Shown here in pieces: positions 2,504 through 23,805 of a stretch of 30,412 nucleotides of DNA; position 1 is the first letter of the stretch, and each line of letters begins with the position of its first letter. This DNA is from a virus. The stretch is taken from the IMG/VR virus record IMGVR_UViG_3300005613_000289, positions 1 to 30,412 of that record. The stretch is one strand, 5' to 3'. The notes below the pieces were generated by a model. The model made no database searches. It had not been told where the DNA came from and saw nothing but the letters and a program-made list of their open reading frames with translations. The translations under genes and the position numbers were made by a program.

Positions 2504-3543
2504 CAAATAGATACTTTTATCCCTAATTCTAAACTTTGTCTATATCCTCCATCTACATCTAGAGAGGTTATAACTCCTACACATTTATAATTATCATTTA
2601 TCTCAGGTCTGGTATTATCAATTAATTTAATATTATCTCCATGCTGTACTCTAGGCTCCCCATAGATAACTACATTACCATTAACTCCAGTAAATGAAAT
2701 AGATTGTAATTTTCTCCTAACAGCATCCTCTAGAGTAGCCTTATCTATCTGATCATTCTCTCCTAGATCGATATTACCAGTTATGGATCCACTAGGTTTA
2801 GTATCAGATACTACTATCTCATTTCCTTTCCCATATGTAGCATATACTATAATTTTTTCTCCAGATCTTTGCTGGGATACTCCTTTAACTATGGTCTGAT
2901 CAGCTGTAGCCTCTTTAAAATTAATAGAGCTTTCTCCTACAGGGACATTTCCCTGGAAATCTGCTGTTATTAGTTTCTCTGTACCTAAATTCTCATTTAG
3001 TCCTCCTCCTACTATCAAAACTCCATTTCTAAAGTATGAATATAGGCTAAATTTATCTCTCATTAAATTGAGAATATCAAATAAGCTAGCATCTTTTAAT
3101 ATTTTAATATCTCCTATACCAGCATCAAAGATTCTTTTTTCTCCTGTAAATATCTGATTAAATAACTCTGTAGTTGTAGTATTTCTAAGGAGGATAGATT
3201 TGTCTATAGTGGTCCTCTTATATAAATAGGCCTCATCCTCACATATTATAGTAGCTGTCTGATCAGGTATGATCTCAGAGATGTATCCCTCAAATATTGT
3301 CTCCTTATTAGGATAGTATCCCATCTCAATAGCAATAGGATCTCCCTGTTTAAAAGTATCACTTATTTTTAGACCTAATCCTGGGATCTGGTTTACTATC
3401 TGGAGAGTAGCTCTATCTGTAAATTCATTTCTCCTACTTTCTATTAATATGCTAGATGCTAACCCTAGTAAACTAGCTTTATTGAATATTAGACTAGATA
3501 CTGAGTTATCATTTACTATTATATTAGAGAAAGGTCTTAACAT
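2503..3543 (-). CDS. Baseplate hub protein, Mu gp44 / late-control D-like
   Basis: At 346 residues it is close to Mu gp44 and the late-control gpD family, which form the trimeric hub that holds the spike. The sequence is beta-rich, with typical hub signatures: LQIVNQIPGLGLKISDTFKQ and GDPIAIEMGYYPNKETIFEG near residues 45-90 (first barrel, with the Y-N-x-x-x-x-F-x-G turn), then ISEIIPDQTATIICED, and an RRKLQSISFTGVNGNVVIYG segment near 280-300. A late PRVQHGDNIKLID loop resembles the second barrel. It lies between the tape measure gene and the spike gene, the usual position. No peptidoglycan-degrading domain is visible in it. Confidence 0.75.
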   Translation of the reverse strand: MLRPFSNIIVNDNSVSSLIFNKASLLGLASSILIESRRNEFTDRATLQIVNQIPGLGLKISDTFKQGDPIAIEMGYYPNKETIFEGYISEIIPDQTATIICEDEAYLYKRTTIDKSILLRNTTTTELFNQIFTGEKRIFDAGIGDIKILKDASLFDILNLMRDKFSLYSYFRNGVLIVGGGLNENLGTEKLITADFQGNVPVGESSINFKEATADQTIVKGVSQQRSGEKIIVYATYGKGNEIVVSDTKPSGSITGNIDLGENDQIDKATLEDAVRRKLQSISFTGVNGNVVIYGEPRVQHGDNIKLIDNTRPEINDNYKCVGVITSLDVDGGYRQSLELGIKVSI

Positions 3544-3545
3544 TT

Positions 3546-5201
3546 CTAGCTAGTTACCTGTACATCTGCTAAAGCTCCTAATAGAGCCTGGCTAATCTGT
3601 TTTCCTATATTCTCAGCACTCTCCTTAACTGAGTTAAGAGTCATTTCTTTAACTCCTGTTAGTTGCTGTATATTAATATTAAATTGTTTAATGCCTCCTG
3701 ACTGTACTACATTCTCTCCCACTTCTTTAGCTACATTAGGATCTACTGATGTAACTGGAGGGACTAATCCTGATACTATACCATCCTCAGCTACAGCCTC
3801 CTCATCAGACAGCATCCATATTTTAGCTAACTCTACAGCATTTTTAGCAGCTTTTAGCTTTCTTATTTTGCTCTGTTTATCATATAGGATCTCCTGCTGT
3901 AAAACTTGTTTTTCCAGAGCTTTTATCTGCTTGCTAGCCTCAGTCTCTAGAGTTTGGCTCATTCTTTTTTGAGCTCCCTCCCAGTCTCCCTGGAATGCTA
4001 ACTCAAATGACTCCCCTAACCTAACAAACCAGGCCTTAATTTTTTGTCCTATATTTTTAATCCCTAACCAGAGTAACTCAAATCCATTTTTTATCCTTTG
4101 CCACTGCATTTTAAGATTTTCCACAAAACCCTCCCAGCCTAATTTCATAAACTGGACAATAATATCCCATGTTTTTCCTAAATCTTTCCAGTTATCTTTA
4201 ACCCAGATAATAGCAGCTACTAGAGCAGCTATAGCTATTATAATTAAAGCAATAGGATTAGCACTCATAACAGCATTTAAAACAGCCTGGACAGCTGTCC
4301 AGACCTTTATAGCTATTATAATGGTCCCTATAACTGCTACTACAGTAGCTATAGTAGTTACTAGCTTAGAAAATGTCTCCTCATTTCTATCTACCCAGTC
4401 TGCCATAGCTCCAAAAATCCTAGATAACTTACTAACCATAGGGAGCAGAGCCTTTCCTATTTTCTCCTGTATATCTCCAAATCTATTAGAGAGCTGTTTT
4501 AATCCTCCAGCTCCTGCATCAGCAGCAGCCTTAGCAGATCCTCCATACTGAGTCTCTAGCTCACTTAATATCATAGACTGAGCCTCTGCTAAATTTCCAG
4601 TTTGAGCTAATTGTTTAATTACTGCTTTTTGCTCATCAGAAAACTGGATCCCAGCTTTACCTAATGCTCCTAGATTAGCTACAGGATCATTCATAGCCTT
4701 ACCTAGCATAATAGATGTACTCCTCAAACTCTCAGCACTAGCCTCAGCTCCATATAGTCTGCTAGTTACATCTAGAGCAGACTGCTGAATCCTATCAAAC
4801 TCTCCACCAGCTATATTAGTAAAAGTCAGTATTTGAGCAGTTACTCCCTGTAATATATCCTCATCAGAAAATAAAGAATTTTTTTGGAAATCACTAGCCA
4901 TCTTAGTAAGCTCCTCGAATGTTTTACCTGATACATTCTGAGTAGTTTGCAGACCCTGCCTAACTTGTGCCATAGCCTGCTCCTGGATATTAAATGCTCC
5001 TATAGTCTTTTTAACAAACATAGAGATCCCTGTAATAGCTATCCCTACTCCTAGATTAGAAATTCTTTTACTCATACCTACTACAGCAGAATTAACTCTG
5101 CTTATAGTAGCTCTCATTCTTTTTAATGCTCCTCTCATCCTTTTGATAGTAGGAGACATTTTGTCTACTAATCTTACTACATATGTAACTACATTAGCCA
5201 T
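3546..5201 (-). CDS. Tape measure protein
   Basis: This 551-residue protein sets tail length and is the longest complete gene in the window. Residues 1-55 are basic and amphipathic. A helical region (60-260) includes TLETEAS-like and Ala/Gln-rich stretches and the segment LSNRFGDIQEKIGKALLPM common in Mu-type and TP901-type tape measures. Two hydrophobic segments follow (about 285-303 and 315-337, VVAVIGTIIIAIKVW and ANPIALIIIAIAALVAAIIW), then a WKD/W-repeat region and a coiled coil. By the usual rule of about 1.5 angstrom per residue the tail would be near 80 nm, which is an inference. It follows the chaperone frameshift gene and one small gene, as in many contractile phages. Confidence 0.9.
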   Translation of the reverse strand: MANVVTYVVRLVDKMSPTIKRMRGALKRMRATISRVNSAVVGMSKRISNLGVGIAITGISMFVKKTIGAFNIQEQAMAQVRQGLQTTQNVSGKTFEELTKMASDFQKNSLFSDEDILQGVTAQILTFTNIAGGEFDRIQQSALDVTSRLYGAEASAESLRSTSIMLGKAMNDPVANLGALGKAGIQFSDEQKAVIKQLAQTGNLAEAQSMILSELETQYGGSAKAAADAGAGGLKQLSNRFGDIQEKIGKALLPMVSKLSRIFGAMADWVDRNEETFSKLVTTIATVVAVIGTIIIAIKVWTAVQAVLNAVMSANPIALIIIAIAALVAAIIWVKDNWKDLGKTWDIIVQFMKLGWEGFVENLKMQWQRIKNGFELLWLGIKNIGQKIKAWFVRLGESFELAFQGDWEGAQKRMSQTLETEASKQIKALEKQVLQQEILYDKQSKIRKLKAAKNAVELAKIWMLSDEEAVAEDGIVSGLVPPVTSVDPNVAKEVGENVVQSGGIKQFNINIQQLTGVKEMTLNSVKESAENIGKQISQALLGALADVQVTS

Positions 5202-11372: not shown

Positions 11373-11460
11373 TAAAAAATAAATATTGAATTAATTTTAA
11401 AAAAAGTATTTAAATAATTGATTATCACATACTAAAAAATATATATGTAGAAAATTATCT

Positions 11461-11508
11461 TTATACTTATACTTATCTTTATAATTATACTTATACTTAT
11501 CTTTATAG
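11461..11508. repeat. Two tandem copies of a 24-bp AT-rich unit
   Basis: The 24-bp unit begins TTATACTTATACTTATCT and its two copies (11461-11484 and 11485-11508) differ only at the last base. They lie in the 342-bp divergent gap between the protease gene and the plus-strand gene at 11655, between the two operator sites. From 11373 to 11460 I see nothing but AT-rich sequence. Confidence 0.85.
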
Positions 11509-11551
11509 CTAGAGTTTTGCTAGAGCTTTGCTGTAGCTTTGCTAGAAATTG
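11509..11551. repeat. Four tandem copies of an 11-bp unit
   Basis: CTAGAGTTTTG, CTAGAGCTTTG, CTGTAGCTTTG and CTAGAAATTG (the last one base short) follow the 24-bp repeats without a gap. A TATATTTG (-7-like, plus strand) lies just after them at 11554-11561. They might be protein-binding iterons or simple slippage products. Confidence 0.8.
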
Positions 11552-20788: not shown

Positions 20789-21226
20789 TTATAAATCGTT
20801 AAATGTTACCTCATTAGTCTCAAAGATAGTGATTAATTTATCTATTTGAGCAGTCCTAGCAGCATCCCAAGCAGCAGCCCTAGCAGCATCCCTAGCAGCA
20901 GCCAGCTCCTCTTTAGTTGCTTTACCATTTGCAAACTTTTCAGCTACATTACAGGCGTTTATGCTTCTCTTATCTGGGTCATCAATTAATTTTAGTGCTT
21001 TTCTGGCACACCATACAGCAAATAGTCTACATAGCCTATCTGATAAAAACTCAGGTCTTAATAAAACCCATAACATATCATCTTTAGATTGCGTCAAATT
21101 TCTATAATCTTTGATAAACCTAGAGATATTAGCCCTATAGTTTTCAGGGATTCCTATTTCTGTAGGGTCATAACATGGGCTTAAATTTCTTAGTCTCTTA
21201 ATTGTGATTTGCTTAAATTGTGTCAT
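20789..21226 (-). CDS. Phage protein with Ala-rich helical repeat (Imm5-like)
   Basis: The 145-residue product has a C-terminal Ala-rich repeat (AAARDAARAAAWDAARTAQI) after LCRLFAVWCARKALKLIDDP and NACNVAEKFANGKATKEEL. This combination, a W/C-A-R helix, a D-D-P-D-x-R turn, then alanine repeats, occurs in proteins that databases label 'putative immunity protein' (Imm5-like) and which are common in phages. There the label does not prove an immunity role. It starts about 22 bp after a perfect -7 element. The gene heads a three-gene accessory unit to the left of the repeat locus. Confidence 0.6.
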   Translation of the reverse strand: MTQFKQITIKRLRNLSPCYDPTEIGIPENYRANISRFIKDYRNLTQSKDDMLWVLLRPEFLSDRLCRLFAVWCARKALKLIDDPDKRSINACNVAEKFANGKATKEELAAARDAARAAAWDAARTAQIDKLITIFETNEVTFNDL

Positions 21227-21291: not shown

Positions 21292-21482
21292 TTACAGTTG
21301 AAAAACGATTGATAACAGTCAATAAAAATCATTAAAACGAATTTTAACTTAGTGTTGTAAACAATATTTGCTACATTTCTACATTTAATAAAAGTTTCAG
21401 CAAAATTGCCCATAAATATATTTTTCCTCCCCTCTTTGCTTTTTTCAAAAGCATTAAAATAGTTTCTTGCGATTTTTCTCAT
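21276..21482 (-). CDS. Doubtful small ORF at the left end of the repeat locus
   Basis: The frame encodes 68 residues (MRKIARNYFNAFEKSKEGRK at the start, then Phe/Ile/Cys-rich). Against coding: it has no recognisable domain, its last codons run through the operator at 21275-21291, and it follows directly on the non-coding array. In favour: its start is the first good ATG reached by a transcript from the promoter at 22272-22308. If expressed it would be a small basic protein. It could equally be part of the non-coding RNA. Confidence 0.25.
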   Translation of the reverse strand: MRKIARNYFNAFEKSKEGRKNIFMGNFAETFIKCRNVANIVYNTKLKFVLMIFIDCYQSFFNCNLVSF

Positions 21483-21520
21483 TTTTCACTGTCATTTTAT
21501 ATTTTTTGAAAACTCAAAAA

Positions 21521-21555
21521 TGAAACCCCTATAAACAGGGCGTTTCAGAGGGTCG
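21521..21555. repeat. 35-bp hairpin repeat, left copy
   Basis: This copy matches the one at 21980-22014 in 33 of 35 positions; the only difference is CG versus GC at the two bases following ACAGGG. Within it GAAAC-CCCT and AGGG-CGTTTC can pair as a stem with one bulge around ATAAAC. It ends AGAGGGTCG. It marks the left border of the 48-bp array. Confidence 0.85.
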
Positions 21556-21979
21556 AAAATCAAAAATGTTCAGACTTTTTGGTCTCTGAAAAGGTTTTCA
21601 ACTTTTGAACAAAATCAAAATACTTTTTTTTCGTTTTCAAGGTTTCTGATTTTTCGAAAAAAGGTTTGTACTTTTTTGTCAAGAAAAAACTTTCTGACTT
21701 TTGAAAAAAAACTTTTGACCTTGCGAGCAAAAAAATACTTTCTCAATTTTAAAAATTAGGTTTCAACTTTTTGGTTCAAATCTCAAAACCTTTTTTCAAA
21801 AAAAATACTTTGTACTTTTTAGTCGAAAACTCAAAACCTAAATTTCAAAAAAAAGGTTTGTACTTTTTGTTCAACTTTTCAAAAGTTCATTTTCGAAAAA
21901 AAAGTTTTGACTTTTTCGCTTCCAACTTAAAACCTTTTTGAAAGAAAAAAAGTTTTGCATTTTTTGAAATCTCGATTTT
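21556..21979. repeat. Array of about nine 48-bp units in exact register
   Basis: The plus-strand core ACTTTT ends at 21579, 21627, 21675, 21771, 21819, 21867 and 21915, every step 48 bp or a multiple; weaker copies end at 21723 and 21963. Units share a pattern of AGGTTTGTACTTTTT followed by mixed sequence and an A run, but differ at many positions. No indel breaks the register over 384 bp. Read on the minus strand in one frame the units give 16-residue repeats (KSTNLFFEI-stop-VLSFRL, KSTKYFF-stop-KKVLRFEP) with stops in most of them. Composition is A/T-homopolymer rich and unlike the flanking genes. Confidence 0.8.
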
Positions 21980-22014
21980 TGAAACCCCTATAAACAGGGG
22001 CTTTCAGAGGGTCG
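21980..22014. repeat. 35-bp hairpin repeat, right copy
   Basis: This is the second copy, same orientation as the one at 21521-21555. Here the pairing is CCCCT with AGGGG around ATAAAC, flanked by GAAA and TTTC with one bulged base. Both copies keep the hairpin although the two differing bases fall in the stem. It marks the right border of the 48-bp array. Confidence 0.85.
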
Positions 22015-22112
22015 CTTTTTCACTTTTTGCAAGTTCGTGCGATTTTTGCCAAAAAATCCTGAAACTTTTTATTTTTTTGAAAAAACTCAAAGAACGTTTT
22101 AATAATATCTTT

Positions 22113-22130: not shown

Positions 22131-22220
22131 GTTTGCCAACACACAAAAATATATTTATTACTTCAGTTCGTTTATTCGAAATTGTGCTGTAATTTCCGCA
22201 AATACAGATTTACAACACTA

Positions 22221-22249
22221 AATAAACCACATTAAAACGATGGTTTATT
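22221..22249. other. 9-bp stem-loop near the start of the candidate transcript
   Basis: AATAAACCA (22221-22229) and TGGTTTATT (22241-22249) pair around CATTAAAACGA. On the minus strand it begins about 17 nt after the expected transcription start. It could attenuate or stabilise the RNA. CATTAAAACGA occurs again at 21330-21340, beyond the other end of the locus. Confidence 0.6.
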
Positions 22250-22308: not shown

Positions 22309-23805
22309 TTACTCCTCACTAAAATTCCTTTGGAATACATTAACCTCCTCATATTCTACAGGCTTGCTAAATCTATCTTTCCACTCCCTATATTCACTAG
22401 AGAGAATAGTAGCTATAAATGTTCTTTTACAGTCAGAAAAATGACCATTTACCTCATAAGTTGCCTCTAATTCCTTATCCTTAAACTTCTTTTTGAGCAT
22501 CCCTCCATCCTTATCTGTTTTAACATCCACATAATCAGATATAGACGTTTTATTATTGTCTCCTACAATAATCTCCCATCCATCCCATCCCTCATAGAGA
22601 GCATTAACAAAATCTCCAGTACTAGCTACAGGAGGATTATTTCTAGGCATCCTATCAATGACATTATAAGATCTAGTTAACTCCTCCTCAAAGATCTGAT
22701 AAAAGGATCTCTTATTATCATCTATAGTATTTCTAGCTTTAGTAGAGACATCTCCATACATGTAGACAGTCTCATCATATCCTATACTATCTAAATACTC
22801 TTTAGTTTTTCTCCCAGCTCTAGATGCTGTATTGTCAGGATCCCTGCAGACTATCTCATCTATCTGGATGAGCTTTTTATCCTCTGGGTAGACTTGCCAT
22901 ACCTGGATAGAGATATATGGGAGAGCATTGTTATCTATAGATAGATGTATAGTAGTATCAGAGTCATATCTAATATTCTTAACATGTTTTTCTAGAGAGA
23001 AACTCCTCCAGAATTCATTACCAGTCTTAATCTGACCCCACTCTCCCAGACCATAAACCTGATAATCATAAGGAGCATGTATCCTACTCCACTCAAACTC
23101 ATCAATAGTATTTTGATCTACAAATCCATAACCCTTAACAGGATGTCCTACTATCCAAAAGTTATCTTTATATGTAGTCTTTATCAGTACAGAATTTCCC
23201 TTTTTATTAATTCTGACATAGGAGTTTTTATCTAGTTTGGAATATCCTGGACAGTCCTCTACTTCAGTAGGGAGATCTATCCATATGTCTTTATCTATTA
23301 CCTCAGTTTTAATCCAGTGAGTCTCAGATATAGGATTCCAGTCCATTAGTAGAGTCTGACCCTTAATACCTCTCATCCTCCTCCTGACCTCTTTTAGATC
23401 TATAAAAAAGAATTTAGATAACTCATTTAGGAATAACAATTTAAAACTAGATAATCCCTTAGCTTTCTCAGGATCATCCATGCCTCCAAAGGTAGTAATA
23501 TTGTCTCCTCTTTTAATCCATCTAGCTAGGACCTTAAAAAATGGAAATGCTTTGTTAATTTTCTCTGATATAGTTTTAAAGTCATTATAAACACTATCCC
23601 AGACAGTAGAGGACTCTTTGCGAAATACCTTAACATTAATTTTCTCTGATAATACTTTCTCCTGAGTTATTTGAGCAGCTGAGTAAGTTTTCCCAGCTGA
23701 GGACCCTCCATAAAAATAAATATATCTTACATCTGGATCCTCTATATACTTTTTTAGATGCCAGTATAAAGGGTTATAATCATTTTTATCAAAAATTAGT
23801 TTCAT
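22309..23805 (-). CDS. terL: Terminase large subunit
   Basis: The 498-residue product is the packaging ATPase and nuclease. Walker A is GGSSAGKT at residues 33-40, followed by the adenine-side segment SAAQITQEKV. Walker B with the catalytic Glu is LLFLNELSKF (about 123-132). The coupling region includes QTLLMDWNPISETHWI (about 149-164). The nuclease domain shows the first acidic strand IHLSIDNNALPYISIQVWQV and a second YMYGDVSTKARNT near 350-365. The family fits PBSX-type terminases. The ATG overlaps the stop of the preceding small gene (TAATG). Directly after the stop lies the operator of the promoter into the repeat locus. Confidence 0.9.
   Translation of the reverse strand: MKLIFDKNDYNPLYWHLKKYIEDPDVRYIYFYGGSSAGKTYSAAQITQEKVLSEKINVKVFRKESSTVWDSVYNDFKTISEKINKAFPFFKVLARWIKRGDNITTFGGMDDPEKAKGLSSFKLLFLNELSKFFFIDLKEVRRRMRGIKGQTLLMDWNPISETHWIKTEVIDKDIWIDLPTEVEDCPGYSKLDKNSYVRINKKGNSVLIKTTYKDNFWIVGHPVKGYGFVDQNTIDEFEWSRIHAPYDYQVYGLGEWGQIKTGNEFWRSFSLEKHVKNIRYDSDTTIHLSIDNNALPYISIQVWQVYPEDKKLIQIDEIVCRDPDNTASRAGRKTKEYLDSIGYDETVYMYGDVSTKARNTIDDNKRSFYQIFEEELTRSYNVIDRMPRNNPPVASTGDFVNALYEGWDGWEIIVGDNNKTSISDYVDVKTDKDGGMLKKKFKDKELEATYEVNGHFSDCKRTFIATILSSEYREWKDRFSKPVEYEEVNVFQRNFSEE

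Follow-up and report, generated by a model that had tools for sequence, protein, structure and literature searches.

Type III antitoxins (ToxI, AntiQ, CptI, TenpI) are encoded as noncoding tandem arrays of short units, and the pseudo-ToxI array of phage ΦTE, which lies between phage genes, is expressed in infection and varies in unit number, mimics such an antitoxin and escapes defence by changing the number of its units (PMC3475682). BoxA works ahead of long noncoding RNAs and of CRISPR arrays, where it precedes a long untranslated repeat array (PMC7862264); in pre-rRNA leaders, boxA is accompanied by complementary flanks able to close the transcript as a leader–trailer helix (PMC10250234). 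GOLLD and ROOL are structured noncoding RNAs of several hundred bases encoded in phages (PMC12286853), and Racrs, the RNA-based anti-CRISPRs, are phage noncoding RNAs with a hairpin repeat (PMC10651486).

The phage element described here is, like the type III arrays, a tandem nucleotide repeat array, but its units are 47–49 nt long and only about 60% alike, hairpins fence it, and a boxA stands in front. No recognised toxin gene adjoins it: a ToxN-like endoribonuclease was not found directly downstream, where three ORFs have no Pfam match (in the first downstream gene, of 145 aa, no type III toxin domain was recognised), and at the other loci late genes or ORFs of unknown function lie beside the element. 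Because no toxin domain was recognised and the units are too unlike, we do not claim type III membership; pseudo-ToxI of ΦTE is the nearest functional precedent. Compared with CRISPR arrays, the element lacks exact repeats alternating with unique spacers, its units diverging along their full length. Solitary CRISPR arrays exist, and no cas genes were recognised among the scanned window proteins. In place of the unique ornate fold of GOLLD and ROOL the element has a tandem array, and no tRNAs were found in the window; in contrast to pre-rRNA, it lies inside phage late operons and carries a 48-base array instead of rRNA; and whereas Racrs carry a hairpin repeat, here two hairpin copies fence an array, and no CRISPR repeat was recognised that the 35-bp hairpin would copy. 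The first-pass annotation of this DNA knew of no system with this build, and that assessment holds: a covariance-model search against Rfam gave no match at or near threshold (the best in the window region, BTnc231, scored 20 bits, the cut-off being 80.4), and a literature search for the build found no paper. With some reserve, we lean towards reading the element, from its sequence features, as a noncoding RNA gene of Bacteroidota phages that is exchanged among unrelated phages, sits mostly between late genes and would be Nus-antiterminated at boxA.

Results

A 48-base array in a phage contig

The window is the whole IMG/VR record IMGVR_UViG_3300005613_000289 (30,412 bases), a complete record classed as linear. 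Its genes are those of a contractile-tailed phage (tail sheath, tape measure, baseplate, head protease, portal, terminase, RecT and replication genes), and its carrier is a phage of Bacteroidota. The closest GenBank relatives of its large terminase subunit (TerL) are from human-gut and Flavobacterium Winoviridae phages, at 36–39% identity (36% to TerL of Flavobacterium phage lotta8-1); the nearest TerL relative is that of viral contig L004, 55% identical, and a search of genomes found no TerL relative. The element occupies a 1,082-base gap between the terL stop (22309) and the start of the 145-aa gene (21226) (Table 1). The fenced array takes up about 500 bases of untranslated DNA, with the packaging genes on one side and the structural genes on the other.

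Table 1. Features of the element and its flanking genes (window coordinates)
Feature	Position	Strand	Evidence or remark
terL (terminase large subunit)	22309..23805	-	Adjoins element, upstream in transcription direction; Pfam Terminase_3 E=2.6e-25, PHROG TerL
Outer inverted repeat, 5' arm (possible closing stem)	22198..22241	-	Complementarity score
Element extent shared with L011, boxA to just past H2	21473..22097	-	blastn 79% over 676 columns
boxA GTTCTTTGA	22087..22095	-	Sole copy in 30.4-kb contig; 81 nt before H1
Proximal hairpin repeat H1, first in sense direction	21980..22014	-	33/35 identical to H2
Array, about nine 48-base units, noncoding	21556..21979	-	Autocorrelation, unit table, homologous array in L011
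Distal hairpin repeat H2	21521..21555	-	35 bp, same orientation as H1
Outer inverted repeat, 3' arm	21328..21371	-	Complementarity score; repeat listing
First gene downstream of element, 145 aa, unknown function	20789..21226	-	PHROG 18326

The first-pass annotation had described a 48-bp array in perfect register, bracketed by two 35-bp hairpin repeats in the same orientation, and this observation is real. Identity at lag 48 across the array is 0.596, against 0.310±0.030 in 1000 dinucleotide shuffles, in none of which the best lag between 20 and 99 exceeded 0.447. The register is kept over all units, since identity stays high at lags 96, 144 and 192 (0.576, 0.529 and 0.487). Written in 48-base rows, the minus strand places an AAAAAGT core in one column across about nine units, one of them weak, where a weak unit had been placed before; the partial similarity of the units is spread along their whole length. 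The repeat listing recovered both bracketing hairpins, which are 94% identical to each other, and the core of H1, CCCCTATAAACAGGG, recurs in other phage contigs. Four features had escaped the earlier reading: the larger extent of the element, the outer inverted repeat, boxA, and an alternation of A- and T-tracts every 24 bases, that is, every half unit. Curved DNA through A-tract phasing was considered and rejected, as power at 10–11.2 bases is below average and the tracts repeat every 24.

Each of the six frames of the element holds 5–12 stops, and it is therefore not coding now. The suggested coding ancestor of 16-residue repeats is not supported either, given these stops and the 49-base units, not a multiple of three, of the related elements in L010 and L016.

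Recurrence with unit length kept

Matching the hairpin core against viral contigs recovered relatives with the array and both hairpins in L010/L014/L016/L017 (one family), L011, L012, L020/L043/L046 (one family), L023 and L026; contigs L024 and L025 end within the element, and L013 has one hairpin and traces. Beyond the window, the build is thus found in five or more phage contexts, in or around late and packaging genes; the independent contexts number about six. Each array has about 7–10 units of 47–49 bases, and the period is kept (48 in L026; 49 in L010/L016; 47–48 in L012, L020, L043 and L046) although the unit sequences are completely different; L023 has arrays of the same period. Matches in L015 and L018 were judged to be chance, and L021, L044, L045 and L047 have only hairpin-like sequence in common with the element.

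The closest copy is that of L011. In the aligned arrays (86% identity) 363 positions match and 59 are substituted, and the only length changes are two indels of 1 base each and an insertion of exactly 48 bases; the two TerL proteins, however, are 27% identical over 268 aa. This is horizontal transfer with length held; blastn detected no similarity between these contigs beyond the element. As neighbouring units are 60% alike and corresponding units 86%, the units must have diverged before the two copies separated. Selection on spacing, proposed earlier from the absence of indels in the window array, is thus supported by the L011 comparison and by relatives that keep 47–49-base units with unrelated sequence; random indels or a lost register, named as the outcome that would have spoken for decay, were not seen. 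That the element is merely decaying low-complexity or formerly coding DNA, as its A/T-rich homopolymers, its loosely similar units and the stops in every frame might suggest, is highly improbable: the array is far better conserved between window and L011 than the terminases, with few indels, the same period occurs in unrelated sequences, and boxA is present.

In the window and L024 the element comes after terL, in L011 and L016 it stands ahead of terminase genes, in L020/L025/L043/L046 it comes after the portal and connector genes, and in L012, L013 and L026 its neighbours are head-protease or tail genes; it is absent from the terL-downstream region of L004. Across 84,980 species genomes of Bacteria and Archaea, a strict hairpin pattern gave only two matches, L023 with arrays and L022 without; as far as this pattern reaches, the element is mainly a viral feature. 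Isolated phages and plasmids searched for the array gave none, and all full elements come from metagenomic contigs; the one plasmid match, Haliovirga, looks like A/T chance.

A boxA in fixed orientation

The 9-mer GTTCTTTGA is the exact Bacteroidota rRNA boxA. Each of the five rRNA leaders checked, from Prevotella, Segatella, Aureibacter, Phocaeicola and Parabacteroides, contains it roughly 140–220 bases before 16S rRNA, where both place and sequence fit what would be expected of boxA. The match between the window and L011 contains it at its right end, on the minus strand. Eight of the 12 elements checked, in five independent contexts, have boxA 26–140 nt 5' of the first hairpin (window, L011, L012, L020, L024, L025, L043 and L046), always on the late-gene strand and never on the other, while a second-order Markov model predicts 3.1 copies in 417 kb (both strands), or about 0.0015 per 200-nt upstream stretch. 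No boxA was found within 200 nt upstream in L010/L016 or in L013, and the L026 contig ends too near to tell. A scan with the outer-stem pattern returned eight further contigs, all chance letter matches, none of which has boxA (0/8), against 5/5 of the true elements. Upstream of the array and in sense, the element thus has the boxA of its host group's rRNA leaders letter for letter, and its transcription is predicted to depend on NusB/S10 at this site. BoxA is a signal read in RNA, and its fixed strand is therefore the main reason for reading the element as RNA.

Position between late genes and a boxA in sense would also suit a cis-acting element of the late operon, in which untranslated RNA, hairpins and boxA set the ratio of upstream to downstream gene expression by attenuation, processing or stability. 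We find this improbable, as the element occupies many different junctions (behind terL, behind portal and connector genes, next to head-protease and tail genes), is absent from related phages such as L004, and would not need a long unit array for that role. Even less probable, to a degree that we would hardly defend it, is a DNA site for packaging (pac/cos) or a replication origin with repeated protein-binding sites. The element does lie beside terL in the window and L024 and near terminase genes in L011 and L016, and in L019 and the Bacteroides phages an isolated hairpin is close to such genes; yet connector, tail or protease genes adjoin it in L012, L013, L020 and L026, L023 has two copies, 10.5-base A-tract phasing is absent, and boxA and the strand bias are left unexplained.

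Folding and outer inverted repeats

On the sense strand, the array with its hairpins has a lower minimum free energy than shuffles in the window (z=-5.6), L020 (-6.7), L026 (-5.8), L010 and L016 (-4.2 each) and L011 (-4.0), although A/T-rich self-complementary repeats can score low without function; L012 has no fold surplus (z=-0.9). Sense energy is lower than antisense in seven of seven elements, and z in six of seven. When long-range pairs are allowed, energy falls in all elements, and the folds of L020 and L046 are largely rods. The A/U hairpins proposed earlier for the units survive in part: array plus bracketing hairpins folds significantly, but for the window array without these two hairpins z is no lower than -2.2, and a comparison of window and L011 gives no covariation support for pairing within the array. 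Covariation is weak throughout these comparisons, with 1–2 two-sided changes against 14–22 broken pairs for window versus L011, and 4–6 against 19–30 for L020 versus L046.

Beyond the hairpins, the window has an imperfect 44-base outer inverted repeat whose complementarity score, 42.5 against a shuffle mean of 26.4, was reached in one of 300 shuffles. Outer-arm complementarity exceeds all 300 shuffles in L010, L016, L020, L043 and L046 and is marginal in L012 (reached in 9/300); L011 has no outer stem (200/300). The arm sequences differ among the three families (window; L020/L043/L046; L010/L016). An interpretation of the outer repeats as convergent promoters, suggested by the window sequence, was dropped, such motifs not being common to other families.

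Outer inverted repeats in most families, though not in L011, are also what the strongest rival explanation would call terminal ones: a MITE-like mobile DNA element, that is, a large imperfect palindrome spreading among phages, whose RNA has no role and whose boxA only shields the late operon from Rho polarity. The varied insertion contexts with unrelated flanks, the two inverted copies in L023 and the absence from the relative L004 fit such an element. It does not account for a boxA on the sense strand every time, for the kept unit length or for the sense fold surplus; moreover, the strict pattern matches so few species genomes, no transposase is among the window PHROG matches, and the repeat list has no clear target duplication at the ends. 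We regard this explanation as rather unlikely.

Discussion

The RNA gene that we favour is suggested by recurrence, kept unit length, fixed-orientation boxA, outer inverted repeats, the sense-strand fold surplus and horizontal transfer, all read from sequence. The element would be transcribed from the late-gene strand, with the packaging, head and tail genes; host Nus factors would load at boxA on its 5' side, as on rRNA, and RNA polymerase could then cross an untranslated, A/U-rich tract of several hundred bases and escape Rho-dependent termination. The RNA, which we infer to be made and to accumulate, would then run from a hairpin through an array of about 7–10 units to a second hairpin, with an outer stem putatively joining the flanks in most families. 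The array units may offer a single partner the same binding or cleavage site many times over, so that the RNA would act as a decoy or antitoxin mimic; the most likely effector role, as far as can be inferred, is that of a decoy in lytic growth for a host protein that binds or cuts RNA.

The element is probably a transferable noncoding RNA that has gone unrecognised. A bolder form of the proposal is that it represents a new class of transferable phage array RNA, boxA-driven, hairpin-fenced, with about nine 48-base units, made late, and working as a decoy with many sites, or as an antitoxin mimic, against RNA-targeting Bacteroidota defence, with unit letters swapped between families and length kept; in this full form we consider it doubtful. 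If the RNA gene reading is correct, an undescribed transferable RNA gene is common to phages of an abundant bacterial phylum and is expressed by means of the host ribosomal-RNA antitermination signal; boxA, unit length and sense strand would offer a testable handle on a kind of RNA invisible to gene-based annotation, and the element would be a candidate anti-defence or structural RNA.

Related hairpins and other repeats

Contig L023 (3.9 kb, binned as Aminicenantes, probably a misbinned phage fragment) has its two inverted element copies, at 1-440 and 3330-3852, about 3 kb apart with a ParB-like gene between. In L019 the hairpin core lies upstream of the TerL gene, with a different 26–27-base A/T repeat; this TerL (L019:522-2918) is related to that of the window and seems to carry an intein-like insertion. 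An exact hairpin core without array occurs in a gammaproteobacterial MAG (L022:539-562), beside what resembles the 3' terminus of guaA, a frequent attachment site for islands. In Pseudomonas phage PfAC11 (L034:26-55), the hairpin TGAAACCCTGTAAACTGGACGTTTCAGAGG, also without array, lies near a gene annotated SeAvs3 and may be a chance match (E=0.6).

Two further occurrences, ahead of TerS in Bacteroides ovatus phages and as chromosomal repeats in Phocaeicola, are unfenced uses of the hairpin core and form no part of the main argument. In the Bacteroides phages BK687P2, BKO1-1, BK735P2, BO1, BO668P2 and BC422P2 (L027-L032), about 600 noncoding bases preceding the gene for the terminase small subunit (TerS) include the hairpin TGAAACCCCGATGAACAGGGCGTTTCAGA, 93% identical to the window hairpin over 29 nt (E=1e-3) and flanked by complementary repeats that differ by phage (CTTTCCA/TGGAAAG versus CATTC/GAATG). 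In Phocaeicola massiliensis, a dispersed intergenic repeat (L033:2850-3050, L038:1290-1560 and L039:1350-1560) has CCTCCTTTCA/TGAAAGGAGG arms that enclose the hairpin AACCCCCATCAACAGGGCGTTTCA, which resembles the phage hairpin, and no array.

The window holds other repeats. In the gene after the element, in-frame 24-bp repeats (20849-20903) encode an alanine-rich AARDAARAAAWDAAR segment of its product. An intergenic gap at 11455-11546 contains tandem repeats, first of 24 bp (TTATACTTATACTTATCTTTATAA) and then of 11 bp (GCTAGAGCTTT); the kilobase that holds them is the only one of the contig in which GC skew becomes positive.
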